Below, piece by piece: positions 32,428 to 36,113 of a stretch of DNA of 64,000 bases. Source of the stretch: Candidatus Binatia bacterium. Its GTDB lineage: Bacteria > Desulfobacterota > Binatia > HRBIN30. A program made the position numbers and the translations under genes. The notes under the pieces were generated by a model. It was not told the origin of the DNA and made no database searches. It was given only the letters and a program-made list of their open reading frames with translations. Each line of letters starts with the position of its first letter. Position 1 is the stretch's first letter. Location of the stretch: the NCBI GenBank assembly GCA_023150935.1, contig JAKLJW010000006.1:1-64000 (forward strand). The letters are read 5' to 3'.

Positions 32428-32582
32428 TCGGGGTCGGGGTCGGTATCGGTATCGGAATCGAGGACAGCACGATGAGCTTCGGCCACGGGCGACTTGAAGT
32501 TTGGCGAGCAGCCATCGAGTCCGCCGGCCGGGTACACCGGGCAACGGATCGATTCCGATACCGATACCGATACCGACCCCGA
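32428..32582. repeat. Hairpin element A: hexamer-periodic arms around an S23-like start
   Basis: The left arm, 32428-32461, has period-6 units (GGGGTC, GGTATC, GGAATC). The right arm, 32549-32582, is its reverse complement at 32 of 34 positions (CCGATA units). The 87-base loop opens a plus-strand frame at ATG 32472, MSFGHGRLEVWRAAIES..., resembling the first helix of four-helix-bundle (S23/23S intervening-sequence) proteins. The frame runs into the right arm as a (Arg-Tyr)n repeat and then loses any family resemblance. Element B is a second copy. Confidence 0.85.
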
Positions 32583-32629
32583 GGGGAAGTCGCTGCCAGG
32601 GAAATACCGAACAGAACGGGTGGACGTGA

Positions 32630-32660
32630 GACACCCACGCACGCCGGAGCGGTGGGTGTC
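32630..32660. repeat. Hairpin GACACCCAC...GTGGGTGTC
   Basis: A perfect 9-bp stem with a 13-base loop, 48 bases after element A. A related hairpin (GACATCCA...TGGGTGTC) lies at 35265-35299, there upstream of element B, with matching flanks (AGCGRTGGGTGTCC). The rest of 32345-32792 shows no gene, apart from a weak minus-strand stretch near 32700-32790 (RGREMQAVLARWERS) that could be a transposase-accessory relic. Confidence 0.6.
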
Positions 32661-32792
32661 CTGCACCCCTTGCTGACGCTCCGCTCCCAGCGGGCCAGCA
32701 CAGCCTGCATCTCCCGCCCCCGCGGCGTCAACGTCGCTGTTAGCATCGTGGCTACCTCCGCCGCCATCGTGCTCACCGGCGGGGTCGCCACG

Positions 32793-33077
32793 CTACATGT
32801 GGTTCGTCACCCGCTTACGAGGAGTAGGGCCACCGCGCAGGCACTCGACAATACGCGCGCGGCTCGCCGCATCGAAGTCCGGCCCGTAGATCCGCAAGAA
32901 CAGTTGCACCCGCATGGCGGGCGAATCGTCGCGCCCATCGGCATTGCCGAGACTGGCGCGCACCAGGCGCTTCGCTGCCTCGAACATCGATGCCCCCATC
33001 CGCAGGCGATCCGCGCCGGATCGGCGCATCAGCATCTCGCGGTACCGTTGCTCAACGTGTGGGGGGGTATCGGTCAT
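32793..33077 (-). CDS. Small protein paired with a nucleotidyltransferase
   Basis: 94-residue helical, charged protein (MTDTPPHVEQRYREMLMRRS...). It contains RLRMGASMFEAAKRLVRASL and a C-terminal VQLFLRIYGPDFDAASRARI, a pattern I have met in small proteins encoded beside nucleotidyltransferases but cannot name. The ATG overlaps the stop of the upstream nucleotidyltransferase by four bases (33074-33077), so the two are translated together. The pair sits in the accessory pocket near HicBA. A toxin-antitoxin or RNA-modifying pair is possible but not shown. No transmembrane or DNA-binding motif is seen. Confidence 0.7.
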   Translation of the reverse strand: MTDTPPHVEQRYREMLMRRSGADRLRMGASMFEAAKRLVRASLGNADGRDDSPAMRVQLFLRIYGPDFDAASRARIVECLRGGPTPRKRVTNHM

Positions 33078-33619
33078 GCACGTACCAGCGTCACGAGATC
33101 GGAGACCGACAAATCGGCTGCCCACTTCGCAACATAGTCCCAATCGAGGCTCGCTACGCAGGCGATGAGGTTCCGCGCGTCCTTCAGCTGCAGCTCCGAG
33201 TGGCTGTCTTTGGCCCAATGCAACTTTGAGAGCAGGAGATCTTCCGGACTCACCATCCACACGGTCGCGCCGCCAATATCCACCAGCCGCCGCCTCGCGA
33301 ACTCCGTCACGCGGTAGGCGGCGCTTTTGCGGACGATGAAGTCCACCTTCACGATAGCCTCTCGATGAATGATATTGAACATCGCACGCCGCCGCGCGGC
33401 CTCACGCACGGCCTCGATCTCGCACAAAAATTCGGCGGCAAACAGTGCCGCGACGCGATCCGCGTCGGCGGCATCGAGCTCGATGACGATGTCAATATCG
33501 CGCGTCATGCGCGGCTGGGCGTAGTAGTTGATGGCCATCGATCCGCTGACCATGTAAGGGATGCTGGCCGCCTCCAGACGCGCGGCCACCAGCTTCAGAA
33601 TGTCGATCTCGTCAACCAT
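33074..33619 (-). CDS. Nucleotidyltransferase-fold protein (AbiEii/DUF6036-like)
   Basis: 181-residue protein with the minimal nucleotidyltransferase signature. YMVSGSMAINYYAQPRMTRD supplies the Gly-Ser strand-helix and TRDIDIVIEL the two acidic metal ligands. A third acidic position may be the Asp of AIVKVDFIV. The later MVSPEDLLLSKLHWAKDS and LKDARNLIACV segments match the AbiEii/DUF6036-type group. Such proteins transfer nucleotides to tRNA or protein in some toxin-antitoxin and phage-defence systems. The partner gene overlaps by four bases. The substrate and whether it is toxic are unknown. Confidence 0.8.
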   Translation of the reverse strand: MVDEIDILKLVAARLEAASIPYMVSGSMAINYYAQPRMTRDIDIVIELDAADADRVAALFAAEFLCEIEAVREAARRRAMFNIIHREAIVKVDFIVRKSAAYRVTEFARRRLVDIGGATVWMVSPEDLLLSKLHWAKDSHSELQLKDARNLIACVASLDWDYVAKWAADLSVSDLVTLVRA

Positions 33620-33674
33620 CGCCGGCCTTGGACGAGCGGCGCAGGCTCACAGCCGGCGCCGGCGCGACCGCCAC

Positions 33675-34262
33675 TCACACCCCGACGACGGACACGAAGC
33701 TCACGCCGCGGCCCGGGGCGCCGCCGAGGTTGTGCGTCATGCCAACCTTGGGGTGTTTGATCTGCCGCGCCCCGGCTTCGCCGCGTAGCTGCAGCCACAT
33801 CTCGTACATCATGCGCAGTCCGCTGGCGCCGATCGGGTGCCTGAAGCTCTTCAGCCCGCCGTCCGGGTTGATCGGTCGCGGCCCGTCGCCGTCGAAACGC
33901 CCGGCGAGCACGTCCTGCCACGCCTGGCCACGCGCCGAGAAGCCCATGTCCTCCATAAGCACCAGCTCCGTCGGCGTGAAGCAGTCGTGGACCTCGGCCA
34001 TGCTGACCTGTTCGCGCGGGTTGGTGATGCCGGCTTGCGCATAGGCGTCCCGTGAGCTGGCAACGACCTCGGGGAAGGTGGTGAAGTCGTACTCCTGGCT
34101 GTAGAACCCCGCGGCCGGTCCGGCGGCGAAGGAGAGCGCCTTTATGAAGACCGGCTGCGCGCAATACTTGTGCGCGTCCTCGGCACGGCAGAGAATGGCC
34201 GCGGCGGCGCCGTCGCAGACGCCCGAGCAGTCGAAGATACCGAGCATGCGCATAGTCCGCAT
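33675..34262 (-). pseudogene. Thiolase (SCP-x/lipid-transfer type), C-terminal fragment
   Basis: About 195 residues matching the C-terminal half of acetyl-CoA acetyltransferase/SCP-x thiolases: EVHDCFTPTELVLMEDMG, the HPIGASGLRMMYEMWLQLRG segment and the terminal THNLGGAPGRGVSFVSVVG. The first half with the nucleophilic Cys is absent. The frame hits a stop at 34275, 13 bases before the first ATG, and DNA upstream has no thiolase-like frame on either strand. The gene is therefore truncated by deletion or insertion and should be inactive. It marks the left edge of a degraded stretch ending near 36300. Confidence 0.85.
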
Positions 34263-34274
34263 TAGCTGGAGTAT

Positions 34275-34905: not shown

Positions 34906-35141
34906 CTGACAGAGGCAGCGAACGATGCTGTGAACTTCCCGGGTGCGGTCAGAATCGGGCGGAGTTCGCGCAACAGACCCAACCGCTTGGCATTATCGAG
35001 GTACAGTTCCACCGCTTCCTTCAGGTTGTTCAACGCCTCCTCGGGGGTGTCGCCGCAGCTTGCAACGCCCGTTTCCGGGCACTTCGAGACGTAAGCATCC
35101 TTTTCCTTCCAGATCACAGCGGTCATGCTGTACGTTCGCAT
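34902..35141 (-). CDS. hicB: HicB-type antitoxin
   Basis: 79-residue HicB-like antitoxin with the degenerate RNase H-like fold: TAVIWKEKDAYVSKCPETG, then CGDTPEEALNNLKEAVELYL. No C-terminal DNA-binding domain is evident after the fold, so it is the short HicB form. ATG 35141 has GGAGG seven bases upstream. It precedes and overlaps hicA, and it is expected to neutralise HicA by direct binding. Element B lies upstream, with no obvious strong promoter between. Confidence 0.92.
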   Translation of the reverse strand: MRTYSMTAVIWKEKDAYVSKCPETGVASCGDTPEEALNNLKEAVELYLDNAKRLGLLRELRPILTAPGKFTASFAASVR

Positions 35142-35351
35142 TCGTCAACCTCCGCACGCCGAGCGCGTTCTTCGTTCGCATCGTAACATACCGCGGGCGG
35201 AACGCTCGCCCCTTACTCTGCGCTGGGCTGTTCGCCTCGGCACGGACCCGGGAGTGGTCGATAGGACATCCACACGGGCCCGCCAGAGCGATGGGTGTCC
35301 AGCACCTCTCCTCCAGCACCTCTCCTGAACCGGAGCGTTCGGCTTGATCGA

Positions 35352-35506
35352 TCGGGGTCGGGGTCGCTATCGGTATCGGAATCGAGGACAGCACGATGAG
35401 ATCCGGCCACGGGCGACTTGAAGTTTGGTGAGCAGCCATCGAGTCCGCCGGCCGGGTACGCCGGGCAACGGATCGATTCCGAAGCCGATACCGATACCGA
35501 CCCCGA
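35352..35506. repeat. Hairpin element B: second copy of element A
   Basis: Same orientation and size as element A, with arms at 35352-35385 and 35473-35506 (29 of 34 complementary) and a nearly identical loop. Similarity runs past the arms on both sides. The S23-like frame starts at ATG 35396 but stops after HGRLEVW, because TGG-CGA in copy A is TGG-TGA here, so the loop no longer encodes the longer peptide. Confidence 0.85.
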
Positions 35507-35709
35507 GGGTAACGCGCCGCCAGGTGAATGCCGAACAAGACGCTCCACTAGACCGGCGCCGCGGTGCCGATCGGGCAAACAGGCAGCGTCTCGTTTCGGC
35601 GCAAGCTGGTGAGCTTCGGCGTTAGGCCGCGTGGTGGGAGTCTCTGCGAGTGGGCAGTGCACGGACCGCGGGGCCCGCTGGATGCCGGCGAGGTATGGCC
35701 AGACACCCG

Positions 35710-35740
35710 TAGGGGCAACCCCCCGTGGTTGCCCGTCGGC
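35710..35740. repeat. Palindromic GGGCAACC...GGTTGCCC repeat
   Basis: An 8-bp perfect stem (35713-35720 and 35727-35734) around CCCCGT. The plus-strand reading RRGNPPWLPVG is a string often seen in spurious proteins of many genomes, so this looks like a widespread dispersed intergenic repeat. It lies just before the antitoxin and PIN relics. Confidence 0.55.
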
Positions 35741-35751
35741 CGACGGGGGGC

Positions 35752-35916
35752 CTGCTGTCCGGACCCCGGACGAACTGGAGGAAATCATCGACCCGATCGT
35801 GAGCGACCACCGCCGGAAAGTTTGCAGCGCGCATGCCGTGGCGAGTCGTCGCTGACTCCAACGTCCCGATCTCGGCGGTCTACAGCGCCGCCGGCAACCC
35901 GCTCGTGCGATCGGCC
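35752..35916 (+). pseudogene. Relic of an antitoxin/PIN-domain toxin pair
   Basis: Plus-strand residues TPDELEEIIDPIVSDHRR (about 35764-35817) resemble the end of an antitoxin, with its stop at 35853-35855. Overlapping it, ATG 35833 starts WRVVADSNVPISAVYSAAGN, the first strand of a PIN-domain nuclease with the conserved Asp-x-Asn. The rest of the PIN domain is missing; the sequence runs into element C about 75 bases on. The overlap of antitoxin end and toxin start is typical of VapBC-like pairs. Both parts are too short to function. Confidence 0.6.
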
Positions 35917-36007
35917 GCGCTTCGATCGGAGCCTGGCGCCGGTGCGACGCGGCGCCTGCGTCGCAGCGCTGGCCTTCCACTCCGTACAAGTACTCAGCGC
36001 AGCGGTA

Positions 36008-36113
36008 CACGTACTCGTACTCGTACACGGACTGCCGGCACGCAGCCATGAAGTTGGACCACGAGCGGTTGGAGGTTTACGAGGGAGCGGCCGTGTACGA
36101 GTACGAGTACGTG
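36008..36113. repeat. Hairpin element C: different hexamer arms, different S23-like start
   Basis: Arms of period-6 CGTACT/GAGTAC units at 36008-36030 and 36091-36113 are perfectly complementary over 23 bases, with looser periodic extension outward. The 60-base loop has ATG 36048 and reads MKLDHERLEVYEGA, again like the first helix of four-helix-bundle proteins but from another subfamily than A and B. The frame enters the right arm as a Tyr-Glu repeat. The element sits between the PIN relic and an ATPase relic. Confidence 0.8.

Follow-up and report, generated by a model that had tools for sequence, protein, structure and literature searches.

We analysed a window of 64,000 nucleotides (nt) from Candidatus Binatia bacterium (contig JAKLJW010000006.1, positions 1 to 64,000, forward strand), in which three short hairpins with tandemly repeated arms enclose the beginning of a gene for an S23-type four-helix-bundle protein. 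The arms of hairpin 1 (32428–32461 and 32549–32582) and of hairpin 2 (35352–35385 and 35473–35506) are 34 nt each, lie 87 nt apart and are 94% and 85% complementary, respectively. Those of hairpin 3 (36005–36030 and 36091–36116) are 26 nt each, 96% complementary and 60 nt apart. The arms are arrays of 6-mers, TCGGGG/TCGGTA with CGATAC in one type and GTACTC with GTACGA in the other, and the frames that start from the ATGs at 32472, 35396 and 36048 read into HGRLEVW, HGRLEVW followed by an in-frame TGA stop, and HERLEVY. Hairpins 1 and 2 are 92% identical over 206 nt, and their likeness runs past the hairpin on both sides. With their surroundings the three elements span 32413–32618 and 35337–35542 (TCGGTA type) and 35985–36150 (GTACTC type), all on the + strand. 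A preliminary description of this DNA had placed three inverted repeats with 6-mer arms and S23-like loop openings at these positions, as we found them, and had taken them for non-autonomous remnants, similar to miniature inverted-repeat transposable elements (MITEs), of a mobile element outside ribosomal RNA (rRNA) genes.

When the whole window was scanned for inverted pairs lying no more than 150 nt from a centre, six places scored at least 34, four of them periodic: hairpins 1 to 3 and a fourth hairpin at 17146–17212 (+), whose heptamer arms of the GGATTGC type (period 7) flank a 21-nt loop. No Rfam match was found anywhere in the window.

We searched the genome of the same organism for full forms of these hairpins. 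The PF05635 profile gave 14 matches (E up to 10), nine of them over the cut-off, L002 and L003 included, and six of the seven near-full-length S23 genes (loci L001 to L007) had complementary arms that scored above all 50 shuffles. The sole exception, L001, lies near a contig end. L005 (G000:C57:1074-1382), the full-length relative of hairpin 1, has TCGGTA/TACCGA arms as in hairpins 1 and 2; L003 and L004, the full-length relatives of hairpin 3, have its GTACTC/GAGTAC arms; L006 and L007 share the GGATTGC heptamer of the hairpin at 17146; and L002, on the window's contig (C6:96245), has arms of GGTCTTGG octamers. Thus the full form, as the preliminary description had predicted, is a whole four-helix-bundle gene between periodic, self-complementary ends.

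Short copies were far more numerous. The same genome holds 99 stretches that match the TCGGTA type (E up to 1) and 63 that match the GTACTC type (E up to 0.001), including related copies of hairpin 1; many of these stretches are arms only, and both arms were kept in 28 of the 31 copies that we inspected (11 TCGGTA-type and 20 GTACTC-type). The preliminary description had named a lack of further copies as the mark of chance palindromes, and the opposite was found. Because the window hairpins keep both arms and the start of the S23 frame and lack the rest, we read them as internal deletions, a judgement made by eye from the sequence. MITEs and fold-back transposons are short non-autonomous copies with long inverted ends, and fold-back ends are made of short repeats. 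Dispersed short copies with inverted ends that derive from a full element are likewise present here, which supports the likeness to MITEs. However, known MITEs stem from elements that bear a transposase, whereas the sole gene here encodes a small helix bundle or, in a second family described below, a putative PD-(D/E)XK protein. The full forms with the same ends carry one gene of ~123 codons that encodes S23 and no recognised transposase, no wider search having been made for other genes with these ends or for transposases beside the S23 genes.

The window also contains an array of GGTCTTGG octamers at 30880–30929, the unit of the L002 arms. No partner arm was found within the next 120 nt, and the array is possibly a single leftover arm.

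To see how general the arms are, we took the flanks of S23 genes, up to 250 nt on each side, and aligned the upstream one to the reverse-complemented downstream one, with a threshold score of 26. In the order and phylum of the window's organism, 83 of 103 S23 genes reached this score, versus 5 of 296 displaced windows within these loci and 60 of 1999 swapped flanks. At a score of 35 the count was 68 of 103, and 78 of 98 genes had arms when five near-identical copies from genome G227 were left out. These loci are the best-scoring matches together with 40 further stretches hand-picked from the same list, and one masked locus (L104) was dropped, so that the counts replace 84/104 and 69/104, respectively. 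Among named genomes (the best 80 of at least 585 relatives), 63 of 80 genes had arms versus 10 of 417 displaced windows; at a score of 30 these numbers were 58 and 0. In viral contigs the arms were found at 24 of 29 S23 genes and at none of 142 displaced windows, after 6 of 35 loci had been removed as near-duplicates, with some similar pairs left in (L359/L360, L372/L374). None of 30 genes for ParE toxins from the same phylum had arms. The rarity of pairs in displaced windows and at ParE genes rules out chance palindromes, and most full-length S23 genes in all three sets carry the arms. The arm-bearing loci of named genomes come from Bacteroidota, Acidobacteria, Verrucomicrobia, Planctomycetota, Clostridia, Proteobacteria, Anaerolineae and bacteria of the Candidate Phyla Radiation, with one archaeal locus from Methanophagales (L176); a Nitrospirales locus and another Methanophagales locus fell below the threshold. 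Of the matches at 183 genes, 117 were inverted only, 29 inverted and direct, and 6 direct only, while 31 genes had none. Direct matches were found beside 35 of 183 S23 genes versus 8 of 266 control windows.

The arms have a regular build. Their autocorrelation peaked at 7, 14, 21 and 28 nt, with no such signal in controls, and the best period over 142 pooled arm pairs was 7 nt in 110, 8 in 22, 6 in 7 and 9 in 1. Few pairs over the threshold were not strongly periodic (2 of 142 in this pooled set, 5 of 84 in that of the own order and phylum). The 6-mers of the preliminary description therefore hold for the three window hairpins but not for the typical element, whose unit is a heptamer. In the 110 pairs of period 7, the 5' arm unit reads NNNN-A-G-T/G (A 0.60, G 0.95, T 0.53, G 0.27); its information content was 2.41 bits versus a mean of 1.81 and a maximum of 1.94 in 20 column-permuted controls, and part of it comes from phase fitting because the permuted controls also reach that mean. 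Purines make up more than half of the 5' arm in 70 of 83 cases. Over the 142 elements, the medians were 484 nt for the arm-to-arm span, 123 amino acids for the reading frame, 32 nt for the 5' arm (~4.6 heptads), 14 nt from the arm to the start codon and 12 nt from the stop codon to the arm. The repeat sequence varies between elements, while the two arms of one element match each other. Likeness of arm units tracked protein relatedness weakly but steadily (Mantel r 0.16 over 109 loci, a value reached by 0 of 999 permutations). Unequal heptads also followed a matching order in the two arms, the score lying above the permuted mean in 90 of 100 loci, in a test that favours the observed alignment since this is itself the best one.

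The pairing of the arms could be kept for the DNA or for the transcript. In 79 stems we counted 3071 matched positions; of the mismatches, 149 would be G.U pairs in the sense RNA, 144 (A.C) would be G.U in the antisense RNA only, and 376 were others. Because G.U and A.C mismatches are equally frequent, the pairing looks to be at the level of DNA, and selection for a sense RNA stem was rejected because no bias was seen. These counts bear on an RNA-level element, in which the arms let the transcript fold, RNase III excises it as in the intervening sequences (IVSs) of 23S rRNA, insertion into operons is harmless and mobility is incidental. Such an IVS in Coxiella holds an S23 frame in a hairpin loop, a 28-bp stem of terminal inverted repeats that is cut by RNase III, and GACAGAT heptamers before the frame, and it has been called selfish (PMC4990558). 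The likeness extends to the S23 protein in a hairpin but not to a position inside a 23S rRNA gene: no rRNA match was found in 20 named loci, of which 17 lack arms, or in 20 named loci with arms. This, with the Rfam result, rules out rRNA as the setting for the window and these 40 loci, in line with the location that had been claimed for the hairpins. The available text on the IVSs places them in rRNA genes and mentions no two-sided periodic arms, insertion among protein genes, deleted copies or wide spread (PMC4990558). S23 shares the strand of its two neighbours or of its cluster in 7 of 8 annotated plasmid loci, but the element L231 is antisense to nrdB and nrdA. Excision from RNA also leaves the 7-nt period unexplained, and we consider it an unlikely account of the arms.

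Mobility was examined by comparing loci with and without an element, as the preliminary description had proposed as a way of defining ends and target-site duplications. Occupied and empty sites were found on cyanobacterial plasmids. At site A, an S23 element lies between two hypothetical genes, beside a TrbI/VirB10 gene, on conjugative plasmids of Trichormus variabilis ATCC 29413 (plasmid C, L229) and Scytonema NIES-4073 (L238); in Aulosira (L235) and Nostoc carneum (L236), where the element is missing, these genes are present at ~97% identity. The net insertion is 428 nt in L229 and 414 nt in L238, a difference of two heptads, and GTAAT is repeated at the ends (5 bp, or 8 bp with one mismatch). 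At this site, L237 can be read as a truncated element. Site D (L232 vs L248 and L251) has an insertion of ~506 nt with a repeat of ATG, or of TAATG/TTATG with one mismatch. At site D2 (L249, L250) a gapless script found no repeat, and TTCTA appears only with a 1-nt gap. No repeat could be read at sites B, C, E and F, which show presence/absence or replacement. The comparison thus yielded empty sites, but a clean duplication at site A only. Elsewhere, S23 lies between nrdB and nrdA in L231 and is absent in L242, and it follows a TraM-type gene in L233 and is absent in L239 and L240. In genus g6, a search for empty sites turned up nothing beyond short scattered matches. In L252, an S23-less hairpin sits within the S23 gene (annotated short) and interrupts it; the arms of this hairpin have the units CAGAAGT and CAGGAGT in common with the host element. 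The site repeats, L237 and L252 were read by eye, as were the attC-like stretch and the CRISPR array described below.

One S23-less hairpin-like stretch was seen in L241 (Nostoc ATCC 53789 pNsp_c); it has similar arms and lies where L233 has its S23 element.

Complementary yet variable arms would also fit templated copying, as in a retro-element whose S23 protein would assist, as Avd does, a reverse transcriptase supplied in trans: an RNA copy would move, and fold-back copying would make the arms or keep them in step. Avd of diversity-generating retroelements is related in sequence and fold (PMC10053308), and the protein of L083, a PF05635 match over the cut-off, scores under the cut-offs of the Avd models that it matches (NCBIfam 4.3e-9; Pfam bAvd-like 8.3e-8). 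However, Avd works with a reverse transcriptase and template and variable repeats, and the available text does not mention periodic arms (PMC10053308). No reverse transcriptase is annotated near the 8 annotated plasmid copies, the rest of the host genomes not having been searched, and the symmetry of mismatches shows no RNA-strand signal. An adenine bias at variable arm positions like that of diversity-generating retroelements was unsupported, A being the majority base in 88 of 342 within-arm changes. We regard movement through RNA as quite improbable, slightly more so than excision from it.

Integron cassettes offer a local explanation that is compatible with a mobile S23 element: the hairpins would be cassette payloads, and an integron integrase would account for how many copies there are. 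The integron-integrase model has broken matches beside L003 (133 and 100 bits) and near L017; such pieces, all under the cut-off and beside or near copies of S23 elements, were recorded at G000:C2:215587-216209 and C15:105615-106070. GTTNGGY precedes 15 of 30 own-genome copies (1 of 57 control windows) and GCCNAAC follows 10 of 30 (4 of 57). In the window, hairpin 2 (L016) has both motifs and a downstream GTTAGGC, hairpin 1 has the 5' motif only and hairpin 3 only GCCCAAC. On the 3' side of hairpin 2, a putative attC-like stretch (35530–35627, +) runs from GCCGAAC at 35530 to the GTTAGGC at 35621. Copies with such motifs could be decayed cassettes. However, all integrase matches fall under the 265-bit cut-off and the same model has matches in 14 of 14 control genomes, so that they may be other tyrosine recombinases. 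Half of the own-genome copies lack sites, and neither attC-like sites nor a cassette context were noticed at the plasmid insertions that we read, where no systematic search was made. Integrons were rejected as a general explanation; as the source of the local copy number they are doubtful, if less so than either RNA route, and they are kept as a possible local vehicle.

A second gene family has arms of the same kind. At a site in genome G031 that is orthologous to the S23 element L101, we found a GxxExxY gene between complementary arms of CACAGAG-type units (G031:C4:107578-108131, in L307; TIGR04256 match at G031:C4:107586-107879, E 3.2e-29). The counterpart in G069 is an S23 element with an apparent leftover arm. 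The GxxExxY element was met in a search for an empty site in g34, in place of such a site. Matches to TIGR04256 were present in 70 of 198 genomes. Of the 30 loci with the best matches, 27 had complementary arms versus 4 of 111 displaced windows (25 versus 0 at a score of 30), and some arms lay 150–200 nt from the gene. The best lag was 9 in 13 pairs, 8 in 5, 10 in 2 and weak in 7, which gives a unit of 8–9 nt in 18 of 27; 25 of 34 spacings between degenerate cores were 8 or 9. The periodicity is weaker than that of S23 (mean lag-9 excess of 0.13 vs a lag-7 excess of 0.33). Eleven aligned GxxExxY proteins share an invariant D, E-x-K and Q, as expected for a PD-(D/E)XK nuclease. Viral contigs held only two GxxExxY relatives, and a GxxExxY gene near a CRISPR-like reverse transcriptase is mentioned in the portions of the literature available to us. 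The presence of two unrelated proteins in the same genomes, each with its own unit length, suggests that the protein or the machinery that it recruits reads the arms.

The dependence of unit length on gene family (7 versus 8–9 nt) is difficult to reconcile with passive repeats, in which slippage and quasipalindrome correction build complementary arrays at S23 genes and the protein has no role. The two-heptad difference between the near-identical elements L229 and L238 is what slippage would produce. However, passive growth does not account for the absence of arms at ParE genes (0/30) and their rarity in displaced windows (~0–2%), or for presence/absence at sites that are ~97% identical, and we give this explanation very little credence.

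With arms around most sampled S23 genes, arms matched in register, elements present or absent at similar sites, and S23-less hairpins with arms of the S23 type, one of them inside an S23 gene, we consider it probable that a minimal mobile DNA element, whose protein acts on its own ends, gave rise to the window hairpins as non-autonomous copies by internal deletion. The full element would measure ~480 nt and consist of a 5' arm, a short gap, one S23/Avd-like four-helix-bundle gene (~123 amino acids) and a complementary 3' arm; the 5' arm would comprise ~4–5 tandem units, usually of 7 nt, with a core of AGT or AGG and a nearly invariant G. The S23 protein would bind its own ends, in the form of DNA, at their repeated units and may bring the two ends together for insertion, acting in trans on deleted copies, and strands would be cut and joined by an enzyme encoded outside the element. 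Integron-type cassettes may be a secondary means of transport for some of the copies in the own genome. The plasmid insertions lie in short intergenic gaps, probably because insertions at other sites are selected against. Structures have been solved for S23 relatives (XCC0516, 2GSC; and 2RLD), and a Xanthomonas relative is a homopentamer (PMC4990558). Because of this known pentamer and the length of the arms, we speculate that an S23 ring of five subunits could accommodate about five heptads of each arm, one per subunit.

Several observations weigh against a mobile element of this kind. Arms are lacking at 31 of 183 S23 genes and are direct repeats only at 6, and the arms of L234 on a Pseudanabaena galeata plasmid are long heptad arrays in direct, not inverted, orientation. 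A clean 5-bp repeat flanks the element at site A only: the repeat is 3 bp at site D, needs a gap at D2 and is not readable at B, C, E and F. Presence/absence is compatible with loss as well as gain. The column-permuted controls yield most of the consensus information, and on average 21% of heptad-order permutations reach the observed score. Finally, we know of no catalytic motif in S23 proteins.

The elements may belong to a wider, unrecognised class in bacteria and archaea, in which one small gene lies between complementary arrays of short units, the encoded protein sets the unit length and recognises the periodic ends of its element, ribosomal IVSs are those copies that are tolerated in rRNA, and much unexplained heptameric repeat content is debris; we hold the chances of this broader proposal to be evenly balanced. 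Under it, the data suggest units of 7 nt for S23 and 8–9 nt for the GxxExxY PD-(D/E)XK protein. The single-gene hairpin element is apparently an undescribed kind of bacterial jumping element. The short tandemly repeated repetitive sequences of cyanobacteria are one set of heptameric repeats. Others are the GGGAATC heptamers of Xanthomonas and Nostoc. In two Xanthomonas genomes, Rehm et al. found 186 and 183 patterns of these heptamers, with 70 and 75 convergent pairs, saw generally no tie to mobile elements and left the function open (PMC4692102). MacGregor described TAACTGA arrays in Beggiatoaceae, in a text in which S23 does not appear as far as it was available (PMC4679880). These repeats share with the arms a 7-nt unit and a variable unit number, but the available portions of both papers state no link to S23 (PMC4692102, PMC4679880). 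More generally, in the parts of the open-licence literature that we consulted, we found no link of S23 or GxxExxY genes to complementary periodic arms. If the proposal is true, it would give a role to the GxxExxY family and to proteins commonly annotated as "four helix bundle protein", would give an origin to the heptameric repeats that earlier papers left open, and would make rRNA intervening sequences one niche of a general mobile element. It would also raise a mechanistic question: by what means an element that lacks a recognised recombinase can move and can preserve the complementarity of two variable arms.

S23 genes in cas loci would be read differently as well. S23 lies between cas6 and cas4 in L234 and between cas10 and cmr3 in L245 (PCC 7003), and the related PCC 7002 has no S23 there. 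Eighteen S23 genes have been counted in cas loci, one of them between Cmr3 and Cmr2, according to the accessible part of that report (PMC3936711). As a separate observation, contig G227:C1 (L139, L140) contains six S23 copies in an apparent array of clustered regularly interspaced short palindromic repeats (CRISPR), partly duplicated in tandem together with its repeats.

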